Assembly (NCBI RefSeq): GCF_036250065.1
Contig: NZ_CP109199.1
Coordinates: forward strand, 3,410,001 to 3,474,000
Source of the DNA: Micromonospora sp. NBC_01699
GTDB taxonomy: Bacteria; Actinomycetota; Actinomycetes; Mycobacteriales; Micromonosporaceae
Reading direction: 5' to 3'
Length of the DNA: 64,000 nt
Shown here: piece after piece, positions 26,693 through 40,692 of the stretch
Layout of the letters: each line of letters opens with the position of its first letter
Position numbering within the stretch: the first letter of the stretch is position 1
The notes under the pieces: generated by a model
Told to the model about the DNA's origin: nothing
The model's input: the letters and a program-made list of their open reading frames with translations, nothing else
Databases searched by the model: none
Made by a program: the position numbers and the translations under genes

Positions 26693-27378
26693 CGAAGGCT
26701 GTGAGGGGCATGATCCACAAACCGTTGGAACTGGTGGAGGACAACTTCAAGAAACCCACCGGGTTCGCCGGCCGGCTGATCGGTCACCTGATGACCGTCC
26801 AGCACCGTACGCTCACCGACTGGACCATCGAGCGGATGGGGATCGGTGCCACCGACGAGATCCTCGACGTCGGCTGCGGCAGCGGCATGGCGGTCGAGCT
26901 GATGGCGGCCAGGGCCCGGCGCGGCACCGTGACCGGCCTGGACTACTCGCCCGAGATGGTGACGTTGGCGACCCGGCGCAACCGGGCGGCCGTACGCGCC
27001 GGGCGGGTCCGGGTCCTGCGGGGTGACGCGATGGCGCTGCCGTTCCCCGACGCCTCCTTCGACCACGTGAGCGCCATCGAGACCTTCTACTTCTGGCCCG
27101 ACGCCATGAACGGGCTGGCCCAGGCCCACCGGGTGCTGCGACCGGGCGGGCAGATGGTGGTGACGCTGGAGATGAGCCGCGAGGCGTCCGGCACCCCGTC
27201 GCTGGTGCAGCGCTACTTCGGCCGGCGGTTCACCGAACGGTCCGCCCGGGAGGGGCTGCGGATCGTCTCCGGCGCGGACCTGACCGGGATGCTCACCCGC
27301 GCGGGCTTCCGCGACGCGGCGTTCATCGCCGAACCCACCCGCTCACTGGGCTGGGTCTGCGCGACGGCCCGCAAATGA
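26689..27378 (+). CDS. Class I SAM-dependent methyltransferase
   Basis: The 229-residue protein has SAM motif I ILDVGCGSGMAVELM (residues about 57-71), acidic motif TGLDYSPEM and post-motif VLRPGGQMVVTLEM. These are features of small-molecule class I methyltransferases. GGAGG lies upstream of GTG 26689, and both ends overlap neighbours by four bases. It may methylate N, O or C of the product. Confidence 0.85.
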   Translation: MTKAVRGMIHKPLELVEDNFKKPTGFAGRLIGHLMTVQHRTLTDWTIERMGIGATDEILDVGCGSGMAVELMAARARRGTVTGLDYSPEMVTLATRRNRAAVRAGRVRVLRGDAMALPFPDASFDHVSAIETFYFWPDAMNGLAQAHRVLRPGGQMVVTLEMSREASGTPSLVQRYFGRRFTERSAREGLRIVSGADLTGMLTRAGFRDAAFIAEPTRSLGWVCATARK

Positions 27379-28814
27379 CAGCGCCGGCCCCACCGGGGCG
27401 GGCACCGGCCGGCGGCCGGGGGCGCACCGGCGTCGTCCACCGCACCGGCGGGCTGCCGGTGCCCGGGGTACGCGGGCTGCCCCTGCTCGGCAGCGTCAAC
27501 GACTTCCGGTCCGACATCCTCGCCGCGATGCGGGCCGGCTTCGAGGCGCACGGCGACCTGGTCGGCTACCGGCTCGGCCCGGTCACCGTCTACGGGGTGT
27601 CCAGCCCGGAACTGGCCGGCGAGGCGCTGACCGACGCGGCGCGGTTCGGCAAGCTCGGCGCCGACAACCCGCTGCGCCTGGTGCTCGGCACCGGCCTGCT
27701 GACCAGCTCCGACCACGACAGCTGGATGCGCAACCGCCGGATGATGCAACCGCTCTACACCAGAGCCAAGATCGCCGAGATGTACGCCACGATGCGGTCC
27801 AGCACCGACGGGTGGCTGGACCACCTGGCCCGCGAGTACCGCCCCGGTGACCAGCTCGACCTGCACAAGGAGCTGATGCGGGTCACCCTGGACATCGTCA
27901 GCCGGTGCATGTTCAGCACCAACGTGCTCGACGACCTGGACACCATCGGTCCGCACGCGGTCGACATCGCGATCAACTACGCCTTTCAGCGGTTGCAGAA
28001 CCCGTTCAGCCCGCCGGTGTCCTGGCCCACGCCCGGCAACCGGCGCTTCCGGCGGGTGATGGCGTCGATCGACGACCTGATGTACCGGCTGATCGCCGAA
28101 CGCCGGGCCGCCGGTCCCGGCGACGCCGACCTGCTGGACGCGCTGCTGACCTGCCGCGACGCCGACACCGGCGAGGCGATGACCGACCGCGAGCTGCGCG
28201 ACGAGATCATCACTACCTTCGCCGCCGGTCACGAGACCACCGCCATCACGCTCACCTGGACGTTCTACCTGCTCTCCCAGCATCCGCGGGTGCTGCGCCG
28301 GTTGCAGGAGGAGGTGGACGGCGTCCTGGCCGGGCGTACCCCGACCCTGGCGGACCTGCCCCGGCTGCCGTACACGCTGCGGGTCTTCGAGGAGGCGATG
28401 CGGCTCTACCCGTCGGCGCCGATCGTGCCGCGACTGGCCAACCACGACACCACCCTCGGCGGTCACCACCTGCCCGCCGGGGCGCGGGTGCTGGTCAACC
28501 TGGTCAACATCCAGCGGCACCCCGACCACTGGCCGGACCCGGAACGCTTCGACCCGGACCGGTTCGAGCCGGCGGCGCGCAAGGGCTGGCACCGGTACGC
28601 GTACCTGCCGTTCGGTGCCGGTCCGCACCTGTGCATCGGCAAGCACTTCGCGCTGATGGAGGCGCAGCTGCTGCTCGCCGCGCTGGTCGCCCGCTACGAG
28701 TTGCGTCACCTGCCCGCACACCGGGTGGTGCAGCACGCCACCATCACGCTGCGCCCCCGGTACGGCATGGAGATGACGATGCACCCCCGCCGGCGTACGA
28801 CCGTCGCCAGATAG
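27375..28814 (+). CDS. Cytochrome P450
   Basis: The 479-residue P450 has I-helix AAGHETTAITLTW, ExxR in EEAMRLYPSAP and heme loop FGAGPHLCIG with Cys420. Sequence style (long, with a HPRVLRRLQEEVD segment) is closer to the fatty-acid/terpene-oxidising CYP102/CYP4-like lineage than to the short macrolide P450s. It probably hydroxylates or oxidises a hydrophobic intermediate. It overlaps the methyltransferase (ATGA). Confidence 0.9.
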   Translation: MTAPAPPGRAPAGGRGRTGVVHRTGGLPVPGVRGLPLLGSVNDFRSDILAAMRAGFEAHGDLVGYRLGPVTVYGVSSPELAGEALTDAARFGKLGADNPLRLVLGTGLLTSSDHDSWMRNRRMMQPLYTRAKIAEMYATMRSSTDGWLDHLAREYRPGDQLDLHKELMRVTLDIVSRCMFSTNVLDDLDTIGPHAVDIAINYAFQRLQNPFSPPVSWPTPGNRRFRRVMASIDDLMYRLIAERRAAGPGDADLLDALLTCRDADTGEAMTDRELRDEIITTFAAGHETTAITLTWTFYLLSQHPRVLRRLQEEVDGVLAGRTPTLADLPRLPYTLRVFEEAMRLYPSAPIVPRLANHDTTLGGHHLPAGARVLVNLVNIQRHPDHWPDPERFDPDRFEPAARKGWHRYAYLPFGAGPHLCIGKHFALMEAQLLLAALVARYELRHLPAHRVVQHATITLRPRYGMEMTMHPRRRTTVAR

Positions 28815-28820
28815 GCAGGA

Positions 28821-29825
28821 ATGAGCACGATGACCGACGAGCGACTGTCCTTCACCCAGTACACCCCCGGCCAGCGGGAGGGGCACTACGAGAGCTTCTA
28901 CCAGCGCGGCAACCACCCGACCCGGCCGCTGGCGTTCTGGATCCGGTACACCATCTTCAGCCCGAAGGGTCGGCCCGAGGCGGCCATCGGCGAGCTGTGG
29001 TCGATCTTCTTCGACGGCGAGACCGGCGAGCACGTGGCGACCAAGGAGGAGCACCCGATCGCCGACACCGCCTGGGCCCGGGACGCGTTCAACGTACGGA
29101 TCGGCGACCGGGTGCTGTCGCCGGGCCGGCTGCGGGGCGAGGCGAGCAGTTCCGGCAACACCATCGGCTGGGACCTGAAGTACACCGACGGGCAGGAGAC
29201 GATCTACCTGCTGCCCAGGTCGATGTACTCCGGCGGCTTCCCCAAGGCCAAGAGCCTGGTCGGCGCCCCACTGAGCAGCTACAGCGGCACGCTGACCGTC
29301 AACGGCGCGCAGATCGACATCGACGACTGGATCGGCAGCCAGAACCACAACTGGGGCAGCCAGCACACCGACTACTACGCCTTCGGCCAGATCGCGGGCT
29401 TCGACGATGCGCCGGACAGCTTCCTGGAAGTGATCACCGCGCAGACCAGGGTCGGTCCGATCAGGACCCCGTTCATGACGCTGCTCGTGCTGCGGCACCG
29501 AGGCCGCGAGTACGCGCTCAACTCGCCGAACACCGCCCGCAAGGCCAAGGGCCGGTTCGGCTACTTCGACTGGGACTTCGCCACCGGCAACGACGAGGTA
29601 CGGATCGAGGGCAGGATCACCGCCCCGGGGGAGGCGTTCGTCGGGTTGAACTACTACAACCCGCCGGGCGGCATCAAACACTGCCTCAACACCAAGATCG
29701 GCGCCTGCGAGCTGACCGTCACCGATCGCGCCACCGGTACCGTCGAGACACTGCGCGCATCCCACCGGGCGCTGTTCGAGATCCTCACCGACGACCGCGA
29801 ACACGGCGTCGAGATCCGGGCCTGA
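28821..29825 (+). CDS. CrtC/lipocalin-like protein, candidate hydratase or pericyclase
   Basis: The 334-residue protein lacks a signal peptide and has two beta-barrel-like halves. It shows NHNWGSQHTDYYAFGQIAGF in the middle and a C-terminal half with NPPGGIKHCLNTKIGACELT. NHNWG is typical of the AttH/CrtC-like (hydroxyneurosporene synthase) lipocalin superfamily. Related proteins include carotenoid 1,2-hydratases, kievitone hydratase and fungal decalin-forming Diels-Alderases. The assignment rests on motif style, so moderate confidence. It starts six bases after the P450. Confidence 0.6.
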   Translation: MSTMTDERLSFTQYTPGQREGHYESFYQRGNHPTRPLAFWIRYTIFSPKGRPEAAIGELWSIFFDGETGEHVATKEEHPIADTAWARDAFNVRIGDRVLSPGRLRGEASSSGNTIGWDLKYTDGQETIYLLPRSMYSGGFPKAKSLVGAPLSSYSGTLTVNGAQIDIDDWIGSQNHNWGSQHTDYYAFGQIAGFDDAPDSFLEVITAQTRVGPIRTPFMTLLVLRHRGREYALNSPNTARKAKGRFGYFDWDFATGNDEVRIEGRITAPGEAFVGLNYYNPPGGIKHCLNTKIGACELTVTDRATGTVETLRASHRALFEILTDDREHGVEIRA

Positions 29826-29879
29826 CGACTGTCCCGCCGCGCCCGTACCCAGCGCCCGATCGACGGAGAGGAGCACGGC

Positions 29880-30536
29880 ATGGACGAGGGGAACGACCCG
29901 TACCTCAGCACCGACGACGCGGCCCGCCGGCTGCTCGCGGCCGCGCCCTGGCGACGGTTCCTCGTGCTGGGTGACAGCATCGCCGAGGGGATGGGGGAAC
30001 CGTCGCCCGGCTACGCCGACCTGACCTGGTTCGAACGGGTCCGGCGGGTGCTCGGTGTCGCCCAACCGGACCTCGAACTGCTCAACCTGGCCCGCCGCGA
30101 CCTGCGGGCGGCAGCCGTCGGGTCCGAGCAACTGCCGGTGGGGCTGGCCTTCGCGCCGGACCTCGCGGTCGTCGTCGCCGGCGGAAACGACGTGCTCGGT
30201 CGGGTCTTCGACGCCGACGCCGTCGAGGCCGAGCTGGACAAGATCGTCGCCGGGCTCACCGGCATCGGCGCCACGGTGGTGCTGGTGACGCTGATGGACA
30301 TCGTACGGGCGGTGCCGCAGCTGGCCGGTGGGCCGATGGAGCGGCTGCCGATCCTCAACGACCGCATCCGGGCCGTGGCGCAGCGGCACGACGCGCTGGT
30401 CCTGGACGCCTTCGTCCACCCGATGTGCGGCGACCGGGACGTCTACAGCGCCGACTTCAAGCACCCGACCATGCGCGGGCACGCCATCCTCGCCACCGAG
30501 ACGCTCCGGGTGCTCGCCACCCGCGTCCACGGCTGA
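29880..30536 (+). CDS. SGNH/GDSL-family hydrolase
   Basis: The 218-residue protein has block I LVLGDSIAEGMG (Ser nucleophile), block III VVVAGGNDVLG and a C-terminal block DFKHPTMRGHAIL supplying the His. It lacks a signal peptide and so acts in the cytoplasm. In the cluster it may hydrolyse an ester or thioester or transfer an acyl group. The start has GGAGAGGAGC upstream. Confidence 0.82.
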   Translation: MDEGNDPYLSTDDAARRLLAAAPWRRFLVLGDSIAEGMGEPSPGYADLTWFERVRRVLGVAQPDLELLNLARRDLRAAAVGSEQLPVGLAFAPDLAVVVAGGNDVLGRVFDADAVEAELDKIVAGLTGIGATVVLVTLMDIVRAVPQLAGGPMERLPILNDRIRAVAQRHDALVLDAFVHPMCGDRDVYSADFKHPTMRGHAILATETLRVLATRVHG

Positions 30537-30618
30537 GGGTGTGGGCTCGGCGCGACAGCAACGTGACACCGGGCGTCGCGGCTGACGCCCGGCAGGCGAA
30601 CGAAAGGGATCCGATGCC

Positions 30619-32037
30619 ATGACCACCACCGATCCGAGGCCGACGACCATCAGCACCGCGGCGCCCCGGTTGCGCGAGCGGATTCCGGCGGTCAGTCATC
30701 TGCGGGCCTTCATCCGCGACCCGCTCGCCCTGTTCGACGGCATGCACGCCAGCCACGGCGACGTGGTCGAGTTCTTCATGGCCGGCGACCGGTGGGTACT
30801 GCTGAGCCACCCCGAGGACATCGAGCGCGTGCACCTGGAGACCACCCGGGGATACCGCAAGGGTTACCAGGAATACAAGAAGATCGGGTACGTCTTCCGG
30901 CACACGCTCGGCAACGGCCTGGTGACCAGCGAGGGCAGCTTCTGGCGTACGCAGCGCAGGCTGGCGCAGCCCGCCTTCCACGGCAGGCGGATCCGCGGCT
31001 ACGCCGACGTCATGGTCTCCTACACCCAACAGATGATCGACAAGTGGCAACCCGGCCAGGACTTCGACATGCGCATCCTGATGGGCGGGCTGACCCAGCG
31101 CATCGCCGCCATGTCGTTCTTCGGCACCGACACCGAGGCCGAGTCGTCGCGGGCGAGCAAGGCCCTCGACAAGATCATGCTGGGCTTCAACGCGGAGCTG
31201 GCGAGCATGGTGCTGGAACGGCTGCCCGCCTTCGTCCGGACGCCCAACCGGCGCCGGGTCGACTCGGCCATCGCCGACTTCGACGACGTGGTGGCGGAGT
31301 TCGTCCGCAACCGGCGCGCGGCGCCCGAGGGCACCCACTCGGACCTGCTGGCCATGCTGGTCGAGGCGCGCGACGACGACGGCACCCAGATGACCGACCA
31401 GCAGCTCCGCGACGAACTGGTCACCATGTACGTCGCCGCGCAGGAGACCACCACCAGCACCCTGGCCTGGATCTGGTACTTCCTCGGCCGGCGGCCCGAC
31501 CTCGCCCGGCGCGTCTACGACGAGGTCGACGAGGTGTTCGGCGGCCAGAGCCCGACCCCGGAGAAGCTGCCCCAGCTCAAACTGCTGCGCGCGGTGGTCG
31601 ACGAGGTGCTGCGGCTGTACCCGCCGGCCTGGCGGGTGTTCCGGGTGCCGGAGGAGGACGTGGAGTTCCGCGGCTTCCGGGTCAAGGCCGGCACCATGGT
31701 CGCGATGAGCCAGTGGGTGACCCATCGCGACCCGCGCTGGTTCGACAAGCCGACCGAGTTCGACCCGGACCGCTGGCTCGACGGGCGCACCGCCAAGCTG
31801 CCGAAGTACGCCTACTGGCCGTTCGGCGGCGGCCCCCGGGTCTGCATCGGCACCGGCTTCGCGCTGATGGAGATCGTGCTGGTCGCGGCCACCATCGCCC
31901 AGCGGCTGCGGTACACGCTGCTGGACACCGAAGTGACGCCGTACCCGATGATCACCCTGCGGCCGGATCCCGGTGTGCGGGTGCGGGCGGAGTCGATCGC
32001 CGACGCGCCGACACCGGCCGCCGACCCGGTCGACTGA
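30619..32037 (+). CDS. Cytochrome P450
   Basis: The 472-residue P450 has I-helix VAAQETTTSTLAW (Gln replaces the usual residue before the acid; Glu is present), ExxR in DEVLRLYPPAW and heme loop FGGGPRVCIG with Cys409. The GYVFRHTLGNGLVTSEGSFW block is typical of terpene- and fatty-acid-type actinobacterial P450s. It is the last gene of the 12-gene operon, ending before a strong terminator. Confidence 0.9.
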   Translation: MTTTDPRPTTISTAAPRLRERIPAVSHLRAFIRDPLALFDGMHASHGDVVEFFMAGDRWVLLSHPEDIERVHLETTRGYRKGYQEYKKIGYVFRHTLGNGLVTSEGSFWRTQRRLAQPAFHGRRIRGYADVMVSYTQQMIDKWQPGQDFDMRILMGGLTQRIAAMSFFGTDTEAESSRASKALDKIMLGFNAELASMVLERLPAFVRTPNRRRVDSAIADFDDVVAEFVRNRRAAPEGTHSDLLAMLVEARDDDGTQMTDQQLRDELVTMYVAAQETTTSTLAWIWYFLGRRPDLARRVYDEVDEVFGGQSPTPEKLPQLKLLRAVVDEVLRLYPPAWRVFRVPEEDVEFRGFRVKAGTMVAMSQWVTHRDPRWFDKPTEFDPDRWLDGRTAKLPKYAYWPFGGGPRVCIGTGFALMEIVLVAATIAQRLRYTLLDTEVTPYPMITLRPDPGVRVRAESIADAPTPAADPVD

Positions 32038-32076: not shown

Positions 32077-32103
32077 GGCAGCCCGGCGACCCGCCGGGCT
32101 GCC
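32077..32103. terminator. Bidirectional terminator closing the biosynthetic operon
   Basis: GGCAGCCCGGCG (32077-32088) pairs perfectly with 32092-32103 around a three-base loop. It lies between convergent genes and touches the stop codon of the sigma-factor fusion gene. Confidence 0.8.
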
Positions 32104-34256
32104 TAACCGCCGGGGCCCATCGGGGCGCCGACGCGCGGGTCCCTCGTGTTGGTCAGGAAGGTGGTCGGCGGCAGGCCACCGTCCGGTGACCTCGGCGCCA
32201 GCGTCGACGCCGGATCGGTGGTACGCAGCACCGCGCCGCTCCAGCCACCCCGGTCCCAGGAATTGTCCGCCGCGTCCACACCGTCGCCGAGGGTGGACTC
32301 CCGGCCGTTGCCGATGGCCAGGTTGTCCCGCAGCAGCGACGTCGACCGCTCGAAGGCGAAGCCGGTCTTGCCGTTGCGGAACGCCGTGTTGCCGCGCACC
32401 GTCAGGGCACCGGCGTTCCCGCTCTCGGTGAACCCGTACCCGGCGTTGTCCCACGCCGCGCTGCCGGTGATCACGTGGTCGACGGCGGCAGGAGGGGTGC
32501 CGCCGCCGAGCTTGAACCCGTAGCCGTCGCCGTCGAAGGGGGCGAGGTCCCAGCGGTTCACGCCGTTGCCGAACGACCAGGTGCGTTCGATGGTGACCGG
32601 GCTGGTGAACTCGTGCAGGCCCAGGCCGTCGTCGGCGTTGCCGTACAGCCGGCAACCCCGTACGACGTTGCCGGTGCCGGAGCCGTACTCGATGCCCAGA
32701 CCGTCGGCGTACTCCCCGTTGGTCGCCGTGTCGTGGTTGCCGAAGAAGTCGCTGTCGACGACCAGGTTGTCGACGGTGTCCGGGTCCCGCAGCATCAGTC
32801 CGGTCTGGCCGTTGTCATGGAACGACAGCGCCCGGAAGACGTTGTGCGAGCAGGACCGGCAGACGTACGCGTGCCCGGACGCACCCCGCACCCGCAGACC
32901 CTGCACGGTCCAGTAGCTCGCCCGCTGGGTGACGTAGGCCGCGCCGGCCCGGACCCGCGCGGCGTCGATGACCGGCGTCTCGTCGCGGTAGTTGCTCAGC
33001 ACTATCCGCTGAGCCGCCGTGCCACTCGTGGTGATCTCGACCGGTCGGGTGGGCCGGTACACCCCGCCGCGTAGCGCGATGGTCTGGCCCGGACGGACCA
33101 TCGACACCGCTCGGTCGAGCGTGGCGAAGGGACGGTCGAGCGTACCGGGGTTCGTGTCGCTGCCGTCGGGTGCGACGTAGTAGGAGGCGGTGGTGACGCC
33201 GTCGAAGCCGCCGGCCGGTCGCCCGGTCGGGGACATCGTGGCGCCCGGATCCGCCGTGGCCGCGCCGGGCGCCGGCGGGTTCGCCGCCTCCACCGACGGC
33301 GGCGCTGGTCGGGGACCGTCGTCCTGGTAGGGCGGGTAGTACACCGCGTAGGCGAACACGGAGGCGGTGCCGACCGCGACGATTCCCCCGATCGGCAGGA
33401 ACTTCGCCAGCAGGTACCGGGCGGCCCGCTGGGCCGGATCCCAGAGTCCCCAGGCGGCCCCGCCCGACGCACCGACAGCGGTACCGGCCAGCCCGGCGAG
33501 TATGGGCGCCAGACTGCCACCCGCGAGCAGGTGTTCGGCCGGGATGAGCTCCCGCTCGTGGGCGAGGCAGACCTCGCACCGCCGGACGTGCCGGCCGAGC
33601 TGCCTCAACCAGCGTCGGTCCGACGGCCCGCCCAGCTTCCGTGCCGCCGTGCTCAGCTCGGCGCAGCGCGGGACCGCGTGCCAGGCCCGCAGCAGCGTCC
33701 GGGCGAGCACGAGTTGCGCCTTCACCCGCTGTACGCGCACCGCCGCGTGGCCGGTGCTGACCCGCAGCGCCCCGGCGAGCTCGGCTCGGCTGAGCAGACC
33801 GGCCGCCTCCTGCCACCACAGCCCGAGTACGCGCTGGTCCCCGGCGCTCAGCCAGCGGCTGGCCTCGTGGGTCTCGCGGCGCTCGCCGGACAGGTGGAGC
33901 CGGAACATGGTCGAGTCGACGAAGTCGCCGGCCGGGTCCGGCCACTGCGAGACGTCGGCGACGAGCGGCCCGAGCGCGGTGGCGACCCGGATCGAACGAC
34001 CGCGGTCCTGCATCTGCCGGTAGGCGATCGAGATCACCCAGGCCCGGAAGCAGTCCGGATCCTTGAGCCCGGCAATGCCCCTGACCACGCGGAGCATGGT
34101 CTCCTGGACCACGTCGTCGACATCGGAACTGCCGCCGAGTGCCTTGCCCACCACGTTGTACACCAGCGGCATGGCCTCCGCCACCAGGGCCGCCATGGCA
34201 GCCTCGTCACCACCGCGGGCCGCCTCGACGAGGACGGGATCGACCGCCGTCCTCAT
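32103..34256 (-). CDS. ECF sigma factor fused to zinc finger, membrane segments and PL9-like beta-helix sensor
   Basis: One uninterrupted 717-residue frame starts at ATG 34256 with GGAGGTGG upstream. Residues 6-85 are sigma region 2 (DVDDVVQETMLRVVRG) and about 135-190 sigma region 4. His223-x3-Cys227-x2-Cys230 is a zinc-binding anti-sigma motif. Hydrophobic stretches lie at about 249-271 and 282-307, followed by a Pro-rich linker. Residues 357-705 are a right-handed beta-helix similar to the PL9 lyase at 36037. Against that lyase, Asp518, Asp542, Asp543 and Lys582 are kept but the fourth calcium ligand is Gly546. Actinobacterial ECF groups with fused zinc-finger and extracytoplasmic carbohydrate domains are known. 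Here the domain probably senses pectin outside the cell and releases the sigma factor for the divergent lyase genes. Confidence 0.85.
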   Translation of the reverse strand: MRTAVDPVLVEAARGGDEAAMAALVAEAMPLVYNVVGKALGGSSDVDDVVQETMLRVVRGIAGLKDPDCFRAWVISIAYRQMQDRGRSIRVATALGPLVADVSQWPDPAGDFVDSTMFRLHLSGERRETHEASRWLSAGDQRVLGLWWQEAAGLLSRAELAGALRVSTGHAAVRVQRVKAQLVLARTLLRAWHAVPRCAELSTAARKLGGPSDRRWLRQLGRHVRRCEVCLAHERELIPAEHLLAGGSLAPILAGLAGTAVGASGGAAWGLWDPAQRAARYLLAKFLPIGGIVAVGTASVFAYAVYYPPYQDDGPRPAPPSVEAANPPAPGAATADPGATMSPTGRPAGGFDGVTTASYYVAPDGSDTNPGTLDRPFATLDRAVSMVRPGQTIALRGGVYRPTRPVEITTSGTAAQRIVLSNYRDETPVIDAARVRAGAAYVTQRASYWTVQGLRVRGASGHAYVCRSCSHNVFRALSFHDNGQTGLMLRDPDTVDNLVVDSDFFGNHDTATNGEYADGLGIEYGSGTGNVVRGCRLYGNADDGLGLHEFTSPVTIERTWSFGNGVNRWDLAPFDGDGYGFKLGGGTPPAAVDHVITGSAAWDNAGYGFTESGNAGALTVRGNTAFRNGKTGFAFERSTSLLRDNLAIGNGRESTLGDGVDAADNSWDRGGWSGAVLRTTDPASTLAPRSPDGGLPPTTFLTNTRDPRVGAPMGPGG

Positions 34257-34541
34257 GTCGACCACCTCCGTTCGTGCTGTGACCGCCATGTTCACATGCC
34301 TGCGGCGTGGGCGCGGCCTGCCTTCGTTGACGGCTGATCCGGCCGCCGGATAACAGCAACCGGGGGTCGGGCGCGCAGGGCGCGAAGATTCAAAACGTGA
34401 TCTTGCAGGTGTTCCGGGAACGCGCTTTCCTGATGGCGGCTCCCGACGTCACCGACCCAGTGGCGACCAGGCTCTCGGGTGCTGAGCGCCGTGCGCCGCA
34501 TGTGCGTGGACCCCACCCCCGTCCCACCTTGGAGGCTTCCC

Positions 34542-35918
34542 ATGTTCTCTCGTTCCTCGGCCCGCCGACGATGGGGTCGGTGGTCGCTGGTCACCGGCGC
34601 GGTCGCGGCGTTGGTCGTCGGTACCATCGGCTTCGGCCACACCGCGCAGGCCGCGACCGTCTTCGGTGACGACTTCGAGGACGGCAACACCAGCGACTGG
34701 TCCAAGTCGGGCGGCACCTGGACGGTCGTCGCGGACGGTTCCCAGACGGTGCGCCAGACCAACGCCGGCAGTGAGAACGCCCGGCTGTTCGCCGGTACGA
34801 CCAGTTGGACGGCCTACACCGTGCAGGCCCGGGTCAAGCCGCTGAGCCTCGGCTCGGGCGGCCACGCCGGGCTGCTGGCCCGAGCCAGTGGGTCCACCAC
34901 GTTCTACCGGCTCGCCCTGCTGCCCGGCAACCAGGTGCAACTCCAGGCCGTCAAGGGCAGCACCGTGACCGTCCTCGGCGGCGTCTCCCGTACGGTCGCG
35001 GTCGGCTCCTGGTACGCGCTCGCGATCGAGGTCAACGGCTCGACCGTACGGGCGACGGTGGACGGGGCCCAGATCGCGCAGGCAACCAGCGAGGTGTCCG
35101 GCAGCGGCCGCATCGGCCTCCAGACGGCGTACGCGACCGCCGCGTTCGACGACGTGTCCGTGACGACGTCGGGCACCACCCCGCCGACGGCGAATCCGAC
35201 GACGACGCCGAACAACCCGCCCACCCCCACTCCCACCACCACGGCGCCGCCACCCACCACGACCTGGCCGACACCGACCGGCAACGCGCCGGTCAACAAC
35301 GGCACCATCCAGGTCACCGGTACCTTCGACGGCGGCATGCGCCGCTACTGCTGCATCGGTGACGGCGGCCAGGGCGAGAGCCAGGATCCCGTCTTCACGC
35401 TCGCCGCCGGCGCCACCATCCAGAACGTCATCCTCGGTGCGCCCGCCGGTGACGGCATCCACTGCGAGGGCAACTGCACCATCCGCAACGTCTGGTGGGA
35501 GGACGTGGGCGAGGACGCCGCCACCTTCCGCGGCGGCAGCACCTACAACGTCATCGGCGGCGGTGCCCGCGCCGCGTCGGACAAGGTGTTCCAGCACAAC
35601 GGTTCCGGCACCGTCCACATCACCGGCTTCTACGCCGAGAACATCGGCAAGCTCTACCGCGGCTGCGGCAACTGCTCCACCTCGTACGAGCGGCACGTCG
35701 TGATGGACAACGTGACCGTACGCAACGCCGACGCCATCGCCGGGATCAACACCAACTGGGGCGACACCGCGCGCTTCACCCGGATCACCATCTACGGCGA
35801 CGCCACCGTCTGCCAGAAGTACCGCGGCGTGTCCAGCGGCAACGAACCCGTCCTGATCGGCGAGGGCGCGGACGGCGTCAACTGCATCTACACCAGCTCC
35901 GACATCACCTACCGCTAG
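34542..35918 (+). CDS. Secreted PL3 pectate lyase with N-terminal LamG-like domain
   Basis: The 458-residue protein starts at ATG 34542 (GGAGG upstream) with a signal peptide ending AQA (about residue 37). Residues 38-212 form a concanavalin/LamG-like module (FGDDFEDGNTSDWSKSGGTW). A Pro/Thr linker (213-250) leads to a PL3 domain: GGMRRYCCIGDGGQGESQDP, DGIHCEGNCTIRNVWWEDVG and DKVFQHNGSGTV. PL3 enzymes cleave polygalacturonate by calcium-dependent beta-elimination. It is divergent from the sigma-sensor gene and probably controlled by it. Confidence 0.9.
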   Translation: MFSRSSARRRWGRWSLVTGAVAALVVGTIGFGHTAQAATVFGDDFEDGNTSDWSKSGGTWTVVADGSQTVRQTNAGSENARLFAGTTSWTAYTVQARVKPLSLGSGGHAGLLARASGSTTFYRLALLPGNQVQLQAVKGSTVTVLGGVSRTVAVGSWYALAIEVNGSTVRATVDGAQIAQATSEVSGSGRIGLQTAYATAAFDDVSVTTSGTTPPTANPTTTPNNPPTPTPTTTAPPPTTTWPTPTGNAPVNNGTIQVTGTFDGGMRRYCCIGDGGQGESQDPVFTLAAGATIQNVILGAPAGDGIHCEGNCTIRNVWWEDVGEDAATFRGGSTYNVIGGGARAASDKVFQHNGSGTVHITGFYAENIGKLYRGCGNCSTSYERHVVMDNVTVRNADAIAGINTNWGDTARFTRITIYGDATVCQKYRGVSSGNEPVLIGEGADGVNCIYTSSDITYR

Positions 35919-35977: not shown

Positions 35978-36036
35978 GTGCCCGGGAGCGCCCCCCACAC
36001 CGGGGACCGATGACCGTACCGTTCGGAGGTTTTGGA

Positions 36037-37866
36037 ATGGATCGACAGAACGTCTCGCGATCGGGGCGCCGACGCTGGCAGTGGGTCGCCGGCGCGGTGG
36101 CACTCTTCAGCGTGGCGGCGATGATGTCCGGTCAGCTGGCGTACGCCGCCACGCTGTTCGGTGACACCTTCGAGGACGGCAACGCCGACGGATGGTCGAA
36201 GTCCGGTGGGACCTGGGCGGTGGTGACCGACGGGTCCAGGGCGTTGCAACAGAGCAACGTCGGCAGCGGCAACGCCCGCGAGTTCGCCGGATCGACCGGT
36301 TGGACGGCGTACACCGTCACCGCCCGGGTCAGGCCCACCGCGTTCGGGCCGGACGGTCTCGTCGGGCTGCTCGCCCGCGCCCGGAGCTCCACCACCTTCT
36401 ACCGGCTGGCGTTGCTGCCCGGCAACCGGGTCCAACTCCAGGTGGTCAACGGCGGCTCGGTGACGGTCCTCGCCGAAGCCGCGCGTACGGTGTCGCCCGG
36501 AACCTGGTACACCCTCTCGGTGACGGTGTCCGGCAGCACCGTCACCGGCACGGTCGACGGCGTCGTGATCGGCTCGGGGACCAGCGGTGTCGCGGCCACC
36601 GGCCGGATCGGCCTGCAAACCCTCTACGCCACGGCGTCGTTCGACGACGTGACGGTCAGCGACTCCGGTACGACGAACCCGAGCCCGACTCCGAGTGCCA
36701 CCGTGTCACCGACGCCCACCCGCACACCGACCCCGCCACCGCCGACGAGCCAGCCGCCGACGAACTCGCTGATCGTGGCGCCGAACGGCAACGACGCCAA
36801 TCCGGGCACCCTCGCCGCCCCGCTGGCGACGCTGGGCGCAGCGGTCAGCCTCGCCACGCCGGGCAGCACCATCGCGCTGCGCGGCGGCACCTACCAGTTC
36901 AGCACCAACGTGCAGATCATGAAGGACGGGACCGCCGCCAACCCGTACACGATCACCAGCCACAACGGCGAGAAGGTGATTCTCGACGGCGAGAACCTGC
37001 CGCACACCCCGGCACCACTGGGCGGCAGCATCCCGAACGCCGAACGCGGGCTGCTGCACATGGAGGCGGACTACTGGCGGATCCGGGACCTGGAGATCGT
37101 GCACGGCCCGTACGCCATTTTCTGTCGCGACTGCAACAACAACATCTTCGAGCGGCTCGTCACCCGCGACAACTACGAGTCCGGTCTACAGATCCAGGGT
37201 GCGGCCAGCAACAACCAGGTGCTCAACCTGGACAGCTACGGCAACCGCGACCCGCGCAAGAACGGTGAGAGCGCCGACGGCCTGGCAATCAAGGAGGGCG
37301 GTGGCAGCGGCAACGTGGTCCGTGGCGCCCGACTGTGGAACAACGTGGACGACGGCTTCGACGCCTGGCTGTTCACCTCGCCGATCCTGATCGAGAATTC
37401 CGTCGCCTGGGGCAACGGTGTCGACCGGTGGGGTTTCCCGGACTTCGCCGGTGACGGCAACGGCTTCAAGATGGGCGGTGGCGACCCCGACCCACCGGCG
37501 AACCACACCATCCGCAACAGCATCGCCTTCGACAACGCCCAGGGCGGCTTCATCGACAACGGAAACCCGGGTTCCATCCGGGTCGAACGCAACACCGCCT
37601 GGCGCAACGGCGACGGCGGCTTCAAGTTCGCCAACTCGACCTCCGTACTCACCGCCAACCTGGCCGTCGCCAACGGGGCCGGTGTCTCCCTCGGTACGTC
37701 GACCGGCAGCGGCAACTCCTGGGACATCAAGAGCACCTGGAGCGCGGCCGACCTCGCCAGCACCGACCCGGCGGTGATCACCGGACCACGTGACCCCGAC
37801 GGCGGCATCCGCGGTTCCACCTTCCTCCGACCGACCGCCTACCCCAACCTCGGCGCGCAACTCTGA
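36037..37866 (+). CDS. Secreted PL9 pectate lyase with N-terminal LamG-like domain
   Basis: The 609-residue protein starts at ATG 36037 with GGAGG seven bases upstream. After a signal peptide (to about 38) comes a LamG-like module (39-212) closely matching that of the PL3 enzyme, a Thr/Pro linker and a PL9 parallel beta-helix (245-600). Spacing exactly reproduces the Pel9A active site as I recall it: Asp414, Asp438, Asp439 and Asp442 as calcium ligands (SADGLAIK, DDGFD) and Lys478 as base (NGFKMGGG). It should be an active calcium-dependent endo-pectate lyase. It lies behind the PL3 gene and its terminator. Confidence 0.9.
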   Translation: MDRQNVSRSGRRRWQWVAGAVALFSVAAMMSGQLAYAATLFGDTFEDGNADGWSKSGGTWAVVTDGSRALQQSNVGSGNAREFAGSTGWTAYTVTARVRPTAFGPDGLVGLLARARSSTTFYRLALLPGNRVQLQVVNGGSVTVLAEAARTVSPGTWYTLSVTVSGSTVTGTVDGVVIGSGTSGVAATGRIGLQTLYATASFDDVTVSDSGTTNPSPTPSATVSPTPTRTPTPPPPTSQPPTNSLIVAPNGNDANPGTLAAPLATLGAAVSLATPGSTIALRGGTYQFSTNVQIMKDGTAANPYTITSHNGEKVILDGENLPHTPAPLGGSIPNAERGLLHMEADYWRIRDLEIVHGPYAIFCRDCNNNIFERLVTRDNYESGLQIQGAASNNQVLNLDSYGNRDPRKNGESADGLAIKEGGGSGNVVRGARLWNNVDDGFDAWLFTSPILIENSVAWGNGVDRWGFPDFAGDGNGFKMGGGDPDPPANHTIRNSIAFDNAQGGFIDNGNPGSIRVERNTAWRNGDGGFKFANSTSVLTANLAVANGAGVSLGTSTGSGNSWDIKSTWSAADLASTDPAVITGPRDPDGGIRGSTFLRPTAYPNLGAQL

Positions 37867-38203: not shown

Positions 38204-38845
38204 ATGATCATCCCTGGACGCTTCAACGGGCCACCCGGCTCGGGGAACGGCGGCTACAGCGCCGGGATCTTTGCCGGCGGCGGCCCGTACGAGGTCACGC
38301 TGCGTATGCCGCCGCCACTGGACACACCGCTGGTGGCGGCGCAGGGGCAGGTCCGGACCTCCGACGGCGCCGTCGTGGCCGAGGTCGCGCCGACCGGTGG
38401 CGTCGACACGGTGGTCCCGCCGATCGGGTACGCCGACGCGCTGCGCGCCAGCGACGCGTACGCCGGGTTCACCGACCATCCGTTCCCCACCTGCTACGTC
38501 TGCGGGCCGCAGCGCACCGACGGTCTGCGGATCTTCCCCGGCCCGGTGGCGGACGGCACGACCGCCGCGCCGTGGACGGTCCCCGACGACGTGACGCCGG
38601 AGCTGCTCTGGGCCGCGCTCGACTGCCCCGGTGGCTGGGCGATCATCGCCACCGGCCGACCGTACCTGCTCGGGCGGATCGCCGTACGGATCGGTCGGCT
38701 GCCCGTACCGGGTGACCGGTGCGTGGTGGTGGGGGCGCTGGCCGCGACGCAGGGGCGCAAGGCCCTCGTGTACACCACCCTGTACGCCCCGGACGGTGCC
38801 GAACTCGCCCGTGCTCGGGCCACCTGGATTGCGGTCGCCGGCTGA
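38204..38845 (+). CDS. Hotdog-fold thioesterase-like protein
   Basis: The 213-residue protein opens with FNGPPGSGNGGYSAG, typical of hotdog-fold acyl-CoA thioesterase relatives in which a Gly-rich loop precedes the long helix. The second half (TCYVCGPQRTDGLRIFPGPV, then LGRIAVRIGRLPVPGDRCVV) fits a second hotdog strand set. A CxxC pair is present. It precedes and overlaps the RibD-reductase-like gene by one base, so it belongs to that operon, but its substrate is unknown. Confidence 0.6.
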   Translation: MIIPGRFNGPPGSGNGGYSAGIFAGGGPYEVTLRMPPPLDTPLVAAQGQVRTSDGAVVAEVAPTGGVDTVVPPIGYADALRASDAYAGFTDHPFPTCYVCGPQRTDGLRIFPGPVADGTTAAPWTVPDDVTPELLWAALDCPGGWAIIATGRPYLLGRIAVRIGRLPVPGDRCVVVGALAATQGRKALVYTTLYAPDGAELARARATWIAVAG

Positions 38846-39567
38846 TGTCGGGGGATCCGAACGGGGAGTCACCGGTGGGCGAGCGACCCTACGTACTGCT
38901 CAGTTGCGCCACCTCGATCGACGGCTATCTCGACGACGCGACCGACCAGCGGCTGTTGCTCTCCAACGACGAGGACTTCGACCGGGTCGACGCGGTACGC
39001 GCCGACTGCGACGCGATCCTGGTCGGCGCCAACACGATCCGGCTGGACAACCCGCGGCTGCTGGTGCGCTCGCCGCAGCGCCGGGACGCTCGGGTGGCCC
39101 GTGGCCTGACCGCGTCGCCGACGAAGGTCACCATGGTCGGCCGGGGCGACCTCGACCCGGCCGCCCGGTTCTTCACCACCGGCGACACCGACAAGCTCGT
39201 GTACTGCGCGTCGCCCTCGGTGGAGAAGATCCGGGCGCGTCTCGGTGACTGCGCGACCGTGGTCGACGGCGGCGAACCGGTCACACCGGAGCGGACGCTG
39301 GCCGACCTCGCCGCCCGTGGCGTACGCCGACTCGTGGTCGAGGGCGGCGGCACGATGCACACCCAGTTCCTCACCGCCGGGCTGGCCGACGAACTGCACC
39401 TGGTGATCGCCCCGTTCTTCGTCGGCGACTGCCGGGCTCCGCGTTTTGTCGGCGACGGGCAGTTCCCGTGGCATCCGGGGAGCCGCGCCCGGCTGGCCGA
39501 GGTCCGCCAGATCGGCGACGTCGTGCTGCTGCGCTATGCCCTGTCCGACCGGTGCGGTGCGGCGTGA
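38845..39567 (+). CDS. RibD C-terminal-like (dihydrofolate-reductase-fold) pyrimidine reductase
   Basis: The 240-residue protein matches the reductase half of RibD: YVLLSCATSIDGYLDDATDQ, ILVGANTIRLDNPRLL and the NADPH site LVVEGGGTMHTQFL. In riboflavin synthesis this domain reduces the ribosyl side chain of the deaminated pyrimidine. Here it is a separate gene placed upstream of the deaminase, the reverse of the usual fused RibD order. Confidence 0.85.
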   Translation: MSGDPNGESPVGERPYVLLSCATSIDGYLDDATDQRLLLSNDEDFDRVDAVRADCDAILVGANTIRLDNPRLLVRSPQRRDARVARGLTASPTKVTMVGRGDLDPAARFFTTGDTDKLVYCASPSVEKIRARLGDCATVVDGGEPVTPERTLADLAARGVRRLVVEGGGTMHTQFLTAGLADELHLVIAPFFVGDCRAPRFVGDGQFPWHPGSRARLAEVRQIGDVVLLRYALSDRCGAA

Positions 39568-40019
39568 CCGATCGTGACCGGCACTGGCTGACCGCCGCGA
39601 TCACGCTGTCGTACCACAGCCCGCCGGTCAGCTTCGCGTACGCCGTCGGTGCGGTGGTGGTCGACCGCGCCGGGGCGGCGTTGGCCACCGGGTTCAGCCG
39701 GGAGACCGACACCCAGGTCCACGCCGAGGAGTCCGCCCTGGCCAAACTCGTCGGCGTGGACCTCTCCGGTGCGACGATCTACAGCTCGCTGGAGCCGTGC
39801 AGTGAACGCCGGTCCCGCCCCCGGACCTGCACCCAGCTCATCCTCGCCGCCGGCATCAGGCGGGTCGTGTTCGCGCTGCGGGAACCGCCGTTGCTGGCCG
39901 ACTGTCACGCCGTCGAACTGCTCCGGGGCGAGGGAGTCGAGGTGGTCGAGCTGCCCGACCTCGCCGACGAGGTCCGTACGGTCAACGCCCACCTCCTGCT
40001 GCCGGGCCGACCACAGTGA
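39564..40019 (+). CDS. RibD N-terminal-like pyrimidine deaminase
   Basis: The 151-residue cytidine-deaminase-fold protein has zinc and catalytic residues in HAEESAL and EPCSERRSRPRTC, as in the deaminase half of RibD. GTG 39564 overlaps the reductase stop by four bases, so the two subunits are made together. The product of the convergent GTP cyclohydrolase II gene at 40039-40692 is the natural substrate of a RibD deaminase, which supports a joint pathway. Confidence 0.85.
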   Translation: MTDRDRHWLTAAITLSYHSPPVSFAYAVGAVVVDRAGAALATGFSRETDTQVHAEESALAKLVGVDLSGATIYSSLEPCSERRSRPRTCTQLILAAGIRRVVFALREPPLLADCHAVELLRGEGVEVVELPDLADEVRTVNAHLLLPGRPQ

Positions 40020-40038
40020 CCACGGCGGCCCGAGTCGG

Positions 40039-40692
40039 TCACCGGACCAGGGGAAAGTCCGGGGTACGGACGGCCCGGCCGGCCTTCGCCGCCAGGTAGG
40101 CGGCGTTGGCGGGGGACAGGTACACCCCGGTCGGTACACACTCTGTCACCGCCAGCCCCAACCGGCCGAGCTGCTCGGCCTTGTCCGGGTTGTTGGTCAG
40201 CAGGGCGACGCGCTCCGCACCCAGGGTGGCCAGCATCTGGGCGGCGGCGGCGTAGTCGCGCTCGTCCTCGGCGTGGCCGAGCGCGACGTTGGCCTCGTAG
40301 GTGTCCAGGCCGGTGTCCTGTAGCGCGTACGCGTCGAGCTTGGCGTAGAGGCCGATGCCGCGCCCCTCCTGGCGCAGGTAGAGCAGGAAGCCGCCGGCCG
40401 AGGCGATGCGTTCGACCCCCTCGCGCAGCTGCGGGCCGCAGTCGCACCGCTCGCTGCCGAACACGTCGCCGGTCAGGCACTCGCTGTGCGGCCGGACCAG
40501 CGGTACGGGTCCGTCGGTGTGCTGTCGGTCGAGTGCCCCGGCCCAGTCGCCCAGAGCGAACGCGAGATGTTCCCGGCCGTCAACCAGCCCGTCGAACGAG
40601 AACACCCGCGCGGTCGTGGTGAATCCGTCGGGGAACCGGAGCGGTACCGTGACCTGCGTCCGAACCGTCGCGACGGGCAGTGCTTCGAGCAT
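40039..40692 (-). CDS. ribA: Stand-alone GTP cyclohydrolase II
   Basis: The 217-residue enzyme opens the GTP ring to give the diaminopyrimidine precursor of riboflavin. Zinc ligands are in SECLTGDVFGSERCDCG (Cys72, Cys83, Cys85) and the catalytic region is YLRQEGRGIGL. Tyr122 in KLDAYALQD matches E. coli RibA Tyr105, so the deformylating activity should be intact, unlike the paralogues in Streptomyces that stop at the formyl intermediate. It lacks the RibB domain often fused in actinobacteria, so it is probably a second, pathway-specific copy. AAGGAG precedes ATG 40692. Confidence 0.9.
   Translation of the reverse strand: MLEALPVATVRTQVTVPLRFPDGFTTTARVFSFDGLVDGREHLAFALGDWAGALDRQHTDGPVPLVRPHSECLTGDVFGSERCDCGPQLREGVERIASAGGFLLYLRQEGRGIGLYAKLDAYALQDTGLDTYEANVALGHAEDERDYAAAAQMLATLGAERVALLTNNPDKAEQLGRLGLAVTECVPTGVYLSPANAAYLAAKAGRAVRTPDFPLVR

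Follow-up and report, generated by a model that had tools for sequence, protein, structure and literature searches.

The sigma-PL9 locus and its product

We analysed a stretch of 64,000 nucleotides from Micromonospora sp. NBC_01699 (NZ_CP109199.1, positions 3,410,001 to 3,474,000), hereafter the window, and within it one gene, here called sigma-PL9, whose product joins an extracytoplasmic function (ECF) sigma factor, through a predicted membrane segment, to a domain derived from a PL9 pectate lyase. The gene lies divergent from a PL3 pectate lyase gene, which is followed by a free PL9 gene (Table 1). An original prediction, made from the letters alone, had described one 717-residue frame with sigma regions 2 and 4, an HX3CX2C motif, membrane segments and a beta-helix alignable with the nearby PL9 lyase, and had read it as a sensor made from a disarmed enzyme. 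The observation is confirmed below and the interpretation is supported in part.

The frame is indeed a single one and runs on the minus strand, which the prediction had left unstated. A GTG at 34295 is an alternative start, giving 730 residues; at the position equivalent to 34256 the ortholog L054 has ATG and the ortholog L053 has GTG (L and G numbers denote our loci and genomes). The N-terminal part is an ECF sigma factor with ECF-type sigma-70 regions 2 and 4, of which region 2 is matched by Pfam, while region 4 has no separate Pfam match and rests on TIGR02937 and on helices found at the expected position in the structure model. The HX3CX2C motif stands as predicted, though the Pfam scan of the protein gave no zinc-finger match. 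As to the membrane segments, which we defined by mean hydropathy >1.3, the one at residues 287-305 is common to the members examined and the one at 243-261 is absent from some of them; both stretches fall within low-confidence parts of the structure model. The one shared crossing would place the PL9 part outside the cell, and crossing by both stretches would place it inside. That part belongs to PL9 by its beta-helix fold and its sequence relation, since it is matched by the Pfam Pel9A-like helix profile above cut-off (E 1.1e-17) and by Pel9A itself (1ru4) in phmmer (E 2e-45), and scores E 3e-31 with the NCBIfam PelN profile, yet below the equivalog cut-off. The free PL9 gene with which it aligns starts 1.75 kb away and its product is 44% identical.

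Table 1. Features of the sigma-PL9 locus (positions are those of the window; residues are those of sigma-PL9)
Feature	Position	Strand	Basis or remark
sigma-PL9 fusion gene	32103..34256	-	717 aa; ATG 34256, stop 32103
PL9-derived right-handed beta-helix, residues 355-714	32115..33194	-	Pfam, NCBIfam, phmmer, structure model
Lys582 (Pel9A base Lys273), retained	32511..32513	-	Pel9A and family alignments
Gly546, replacing Pel9A calcium ligand Asp237	32619..32621	-	Pel9A and family alignments
Asp542-Asp543 (Pel9A Asp233, Asp234), retained	32628..32633	-	Pel9A and family alignments
Asp518 (Pel9A Asp209), retained	32703..32705	-	Pel9A and family alignments
Pro/Ala-rich linker, residues 310-350	33207..33329	-	Predicted disordered; pLDDT <50 over 279-350
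Predicted membrane-spanning segment, residues 287-305	33342..33398	-	Hydropathy; counterpart in 30/30 fused proteins
First hydrophobic stretch, residues 243-261	33474..33530	-	Hydropathy; counterpart missing in at least 4/30 members
HX3CX2C zinc-type motif, H223 C227 C230	33567..33590	-	Sequence; invariant in 30/30 aligned fusions
ECF sigma domain, residues 20-182	33711..34199	-	NCBIfam TIGR02937 sigma70-ECF, above cut-off
Sigma region 2, residues 24-87	33996-34187	-	Pfam match, E 1.4e-11
Ribosome-binding-like GGAGGT	34264..34269	-	Seven bases 5' of ATG 34256
Promoter-like element GTTATC-N17-GTCAAC	34326..34354	-	Reads toward sigma-PL9 gene, 69 bases before ATG
Palindrome GGAACGCGCTTTCC	34417..34430		Between sigma-PL9 and PL3 genes
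Divergent PL3 pectate lyase gene	34542..35918	+	ATG 34542; GTG 34479 is the start in the list of open reading frames; Pfam
Free PL9 pectate lyase gene	36010..37866	+	All five active-site residues; Pfam, alignment

Recurrence of the fusion in relatives

At least 39 of 150 Micromonosporaceae genomes hold full-length homologs with the same domain order, and further ones occur in named records of Micromonospora, Catellatospora, Hamadaea, Paractinoplanes, Streptomyces, Saccharothrix and Parafrankia. Two fused matches were left out of the loci analysed, namely an equal-score second copy in G135 (contig 43) and a contig-end piece in G076 (contig 148). One copy (G055) is broken by a stop; at L087:9027-11192 an in-frame stop breaks the sigma-PL9 gene. 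For the clade made up of the window, L053 and L054, the ratio of nonsynonymous to synonymous substitution rates lies between 0.24 and 0.30 in the PL9 part and between 0.14 and 0.23 in the sigma part, and these low values indicate that the PL9 domain is maintained by purifying selection.

Erosion of the PL9 active site

Alignment to Pel9A bore out the residue mapping of the original prediction, with Asp237 replaced by Gly and the other four residues kept (Table 1); even 1ru4 and 5olq (32% and 25% identity) still align at the active-site Asp residues and Lys. Asp234 of Pel9A we take to be a calcium ligand. Asp209, Asp233 and Asp237 are given as calcium ligands, and Lys273 as the base, in the part of a review that was surveyed (PMC10992409).

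All 40 free PL9 enzymes compared read DDDDK at the five active-site positions, and so do just five of the 42 fused domains. At least one residue is lost in 37 of the 42, or in 33 when Lys-to-Arg is not counted, and in 22 the base position holds neither Lys nor Arg. The resulting patterns differ by lineage (DGDDK in seven, SGDNA in five, DDDDR in four and DDDGK in three, plus others), the DDDGK domains being that of the window and two orthologs; the Asp237-to-Gly change is common to the window and its four closest relatives. The named records, some of which stem from these genomes too, show a departure from DDDDK in 34 of 37 cases, and two further Micromonospora proteins read DDDGK. The free set covers part of the free PL9 matches listed in the 150-genome search, with L009 and L010 coming from a separate search, and duplicates (L010 and the L077 PL9), a partial PL9 in L079 and both L087 pieces were dropped before counting.

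In a tree computed without the five active-site columns the fused domains form one clade (support of 100 in the Shimodaira-Hasegawa-like approximate likelihood ratio test), and at least four first losses are needed if residues are never regained. As read from these alignments, the active site of the fused PL9 domains is eroded across most of the clade. We dropped the loss of a single residue as proof of inactivity, which is too weak, and used the clade-wide comparison instead. The disarmed-lyase sensor of the original prediction thereby draws its support from the clade-wide erosion, together with the pectinase linkage described next, the Asp237-to-Gly change being weak on its own.

Linkage to pectinase genes

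A pectinase gene (PL1, CE8, PL3 or free PL9) lies near sigma-PL9 in 35 of 42 loci, as compared with none of 39 control loci, which carry the same sigma half with other modules but are somewhat shorter (mean 16.4 kb, with about 14-22 kb of sequence read per fused locus) and mostly from Streptomyces, so that the host organism confounds the comparison. Typically (31/42) the genes form a cluster in which sigma-PL9 is flanked by genes for PL1 lyases and pectinesterases, most of which carry a ricin-type lectin part. Seven fused loci lack a pectinase: six make up a subclade considered below, and the seventh, L074, has as its neighbour a distant relative of PL1 that scores below the Pfam cut-off (E 9e-5). 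Gene calling in these neighbourhoods relied on a simple script for codon usage rather than a standard gene finder, and the 42 loci include L087 and exclude the short locus L127.

Elsewhere in the window's own genome, at 7.63 Mb, there is a pectinase cluster with six consecutive PL1 domain matches within 9 kb (L322, L323, L325, L326, L328 and L330). Within the window, a group of genes resembling a riboflavin-type set lies at 38719-40692, with adjacent genes for a RibD C-terminal domain, a deaminase and GTP cyclohydrolase II; at 27375-32037 there are two cytochrome P450 genes, and between them a GDSL lipase gene and, at 28821-29825, one for a 334-residue protein with no Pfam match.

A promoter-like element shared among fused loci

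Two-block counting 5' of the fused genes gave a pattern present in 11 of 28 locus groups, against at most seven for any pattern in shuffled sequences. On the strand facing the pectinase genes it reads GTTATC-N17-RTCWAC, with the broader form GTTRTC-N16/17-RTCWAC. The loose element occurs on the gene strand 5' of 17 of 42 fused genes and of one of 516 other neighbouring genes, and on the opposite strand the corresponding counts are 3/42 and 6/516. In many relatives it precedes PL1, CE8, PL3 or free PL9 genes, and away from the sigma-PL9 locus it was also found before free PL9 genes in G058 and G111 and before an arabinofuranosidase gene in G061. Its form tracks the sigma clade, GTCAAC being found in the window's clade and GTTGTC with a spacer of 16 mainly in Paractinoplanes.

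When all 150 genomes were scanned with the strict pattern, the 39 that carry the fusion gave 35 matches and the 111 without a detected one gave 29, an excess that arises partly by construction as the discovery and test sets overlap; the reversed-pattern control gives 19 matches in all 150. Evidence less dependent on the discovery set comes from the off-locus sites just named and from two further counts. None of the 17 sites examined in genomes without the fusion points at a gene of the query set, a survey in which PL3 genes may be missed. Among the named loci outside the discovery set, 9 of 25 carry the element with at least 11 of its 12 positions matched, and in four of these nine it stands before a PL1 gene as well as a pectinesterase gene. 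In a combined scan of two collections of loci, some sharing a genome and with identical windows counted once, 36 of 176 distinct upstream windows reach at least 11, in 30 of 79 loci, where the element precedes pectinase or fusion genes, and none of the 176 does so when read backwards.

Two other promoter readings were rejected. A housekeeping or WhiG-type reading of the same sites (GTWGAY-N17-GATAAC) was dropped as the sites before tandem and operon genes indicate the opposite strand, and a GGAAC-type ECF promoter showed no enrichment. In two related genomes (L248 and L249) the element stands before ribulokinase-like (araB) genes divergent from araA-like genes, and at L258:1533-2927 it immediately precedes the gene of a lipoprotein-like protein with BspA-type leucine-rich repeats.

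Sister fusions with other modules

The same sigma half also carries GH128, PL1, AbfB, CAP or unnamed modules, the labels other than PL9 being based on short sequence motifs checked with Pfam on a sample. Such sister fusions include L191-L230, with AbfB, CAP, GH128 or modules lacking a Pfam match (labelled PVPQY and GCxGV); L129:397-2577, where a PL1 pectate lyase domain makes a second lyase family so used; and a paralog in the window's own genome (L003:391-2307, at about 6.68 Mb) with a GH128-type domain that keeps its catalytic motifs. In a tree of the sigma half the modules are not cleanly separated, PL9 needing three changes, and we therefore make no claim about the order of module swaps.

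Weighing of the alternatives

Several observations weigh against a pectin receptor that reads this element, and we consider them with the alternatives on which they bear. The element may be that of a different sigma factor or pectin-gene regulator, in which case sigma-PL9 would have other targets. Consistent with this, the strict pattern is present in 24 of the 111 genomes without a detected sigma-PL9, at about twice the reversed-control rate, and a strict out-of-sample scan with spacer 17 only gave one site, at nothing relevant, in 26 loci as against eight in 39 controls, the positive out-of-sample matches having required spacer 16 as well as 17. On the opposite strand 27 of the 176 upstream windows also reach at least 11, which we interpret as due to divergent genes sharing the region, so that the orientation of the element rests on tandem genes, operons and distant PL9 genes. 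Moreover, the sites at the sigma-PL9 loci of G114 (L253) and G022 (L260) point at no recognised pectinase, and of the 16 off-locus sites examined in fusion genomes two face araB-like genes, one faces the gene of a leucine-rich-repeat protein, and ten face nothing in the query set, where PL3 genes may again be missed. Against another regulator stand the excess of strict matches in fusion genomes, with the overlap noted above, the variation of the element with the sigma clade, and the distribution of the gene-strand loose form, which in one and the same set precedes 6 of 41 PL9 fusions, none of the 57 sister fusions whose module is recognised, and one of eight unclassified ones; we regard this alternative as unlikely, while giving it real weight.

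The window's own genome bears on the same question. The element at 34326-34354 is the sole exact match of the strict pattern in the 8.28 Mb and is conserved at two orthologous loci. The PL3 and PL9 genes, 11 PL1 matches and one pectinesterase gene of this genome score like the control, looser patterns included, and a relaxed scan with two mismatches gives 174 matches where the control already gives 84. With the element standing before the sigma-PL9 gene alone, autoregulation is the only direct link in this strain, and the sequence suggests that the gene is autoregulated; direct control of the neighbouring lyase genes is not supported here. The original prediction had placed the sensor beside its lyase targets, of which the adjacency holds and the role of these lyases as targets is unsupported in this genome. 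The palindrome GGAACGCGCTTTCC, which we take to be LacI-family-like, resembles a repressor operator and suggests a second, repressor-type regulator; of the 11 PL1 matches in this genome, 3 have GGAA-N6-TTCC forms within 1.5 kb 5' of the PL1 domain, and at L332 the form falls inside the open frame, whose assigned start may not be the true one.

A further alternative is that the PL9 domain is a working, membrane-tethered lyase which signals through its own reaction. The window's domain does retain four of the five residues (Asp209, Asp233, Asp234 and Lys273), five fused domains keep all five, and four more have just Arg as base; these last may still work because PL1 lyases use Arg as the base, according to the part of that literature surveyed (PMC6627557). 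In 22 of 22 rows (two rows being one locus) the sister GH128 fusions retain the motifs NEP and TE[FY], where the catalytic Glu residues presumably lie; this speaks for a working lyase, and it also counts against decay of any fused enzyme. Unrestricted parsimony needs just two changes between intact and eroded states, and divergence is greater among the fused than among the free domains. Conservation of the five catalytic columns in the fused set is 36-86%, as compared with an average of 62% for 117 columns invariant in 39 or 40 of the 40 free enzymes. Catalytic loss is thus, as far as these columns tell, part of a general divergence and not a targeted change. Not being singled out, the catalytic residues are simply unprotected, and a working enzyme would need that protection. 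The losses in 37 of 42 fusions and none of 40 free enzymes, the base position in 22 of 42 and the sharing of the window's Asp237-to-Gly change with its four closest relatives all speak against a working lyase, which we hold to be decidedly unlikely.

It is less probable still that sigma-PL9 senses something other than pectin, the beta-helix having been reused for another polymer or a protein. Several of the columns that are fixed in the free enzymes are altered in all or nearly all fusions, and the subclade of six (L083, L086, L088, L089, L090 and L092) has no pectinase neighbours and a different synteny common to its members, whereas the presence of pectinase genes at 35 of 42 fused loci and none of the controls, and the position of the linked element before such genes, point to pectin. 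In this subclade the active site is heavily changed and a DinB-type polymerase gene lies nearby. Finally, a false joining of two genes through sequencing or assembly error, or by chance, can be set aside, as no support for it was found and the full-length order recurs across the genomes and the many named records, so that separate genes for the two halves, which the original prediction had named as its refutation, are not borne out.

Proposed mechanism and origin

Taken together, we consider it probable, at roughly 0.68, that sigma-PL9 is a one-protein transmembrane receptor combining a predicted pectin-sensing, disarmed PL9 domain with a self-anchored ECF sigma factor. The computed basis comprises the architecture, the PL9 fold, the loss of catalytic residues, purifying selection, the pectinase linkage and the shared promoter-like element, and from it we infer the ligand, the loss of activity, the outside orientation, proteolytic release and the reading of the element by sigma-PL9. 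The zinc-motif segment, resembling an anti-sigma factor, would hold the sigma domain at the inner face of the membrane together with the membrane helix, and the PL9 domain, probably unable to cut efficiently and probably still binding pectate or oligogalacturonides, would be the sensor outside. Once a pectic ligand is bound, the protein would be cleaved within the membrane or close to it, and this would release the sigma domain, which would transcribe from GTTRTC-N16/17-RTCWAC, that is from its own promoter in this strain and, in many relatives, from the adjacent PL1, CE8 and PL3 pectinase genes too.

For the origin of the family we see an even chance that a self-anchored sigma factor acquired the secreted pectin-cutting enzyme a single time, that the enzyme was later disarmed in at least four independent events, each starting at a different catalytic residue, to give pectin receptors, that the promoter changed with the sigma domain, and that all this took place within a wider modular family carrying PL9, PL1, GH128, AbfB, CAP and unknown modules.

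Comparison with known systems

The literature cited here was surveyed in passages, and the statements below hold for these. The groups ECF52 and ECF53 consist of actinobacterial sigma factors to which a zinc motif, a membrane part and carbohydrate domains are fused (PMC10766802, PMC5826349, PMC8999054), as the original prediction had said of such fusions, and sigma-PL9 shares their layout of a C-terminal zinc motif, one or two membrane helices and a long extension, as judged from motif and hydropathy. The ECF52 member SCO4117 of Streptomyces coelicolor likewise has a sigma domain, zinc motif, membrane segment, Pro-rich linker and carbohydrate-related C-terminus, but it ends in a carbohydrate-binding module (smart00776), controls development, and has a proposed motif, CSGYN-17-SRHA, different from the present element (PMC5826349, PMC8999054). 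In place of the carbohydrate-binding module that marks ECF52, sigma-PL9 carries a lyase-derived beta-helix linked to pectinase genes. ECF53 proteins share the zinc-finger and membrane part, some having predicted glycosyl hydrolase or carbohydrate-binding domains; experimental validation of these fusions is lacking, and no PL9 member is named in the passages on them (PMC10766802).

For ECF48, ECF52 and ECF53 release by proteolysis has been proposed, and it has been demonstrated for the ECF243 member IutY of Pseudomonas putida, a sigma factor fused, like sigma-PL9, to its own membrane anti-sigma part and freed by Prc and RseP; unlike sigma-PL9, IutY responds to a siderophore via cell-surface signalling and has no sugar domain (PMC8999054). 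A functional parallel is provided by SigI/RsgI of Clostridium thermocellum, in which extracellular CBM3, CBM42, PA14, GH10 and protease-like domains signal to a sigma factor, the protease-like domain of RsgI9 binding polysaccharide. However, that system consists of separate sigma and anti-sigma proteins, with another sigma family and a self-cleaving periplasmic domain (PMC12203970), whereas sigma-PL9 is one polypeptide of the ECF type.

No sigma factor fused to a pectate lyase was named in the titles and abstract openings surveyed, the two main ECF classification papers lying outside this coverage, and within that scope the claim of the original prediction that such a sensor is undescribed is consistent with the literature. 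Since sigma-carbohydrate fusions are already known, what is probably new, on the sequence evidence, is a one-protein pectin receptor built from a repeatedly disarmed lyase. In the passages surveyed the ligands and promoters of ECF52/ECF53-type sigma factors are largely untested (PMC8999054, PMC10766802, PMC5826349), and with pectin as the likely class of ligand, a candidate promoter and clusters of likely targets, sigma-PL9 makes both questions directly testable. In comparison with Pel9A (1ru4), the sigma-PL9 domain has Gly for Asp237 and is tethered to a sigma factor; it looks like a clear case of an enzyme turned receptor, for which the intact free copies in genomes of the family serve as controls and the GH128 sister fusions, with catalytic residues seemingly kept, as a comparison for the erosion.

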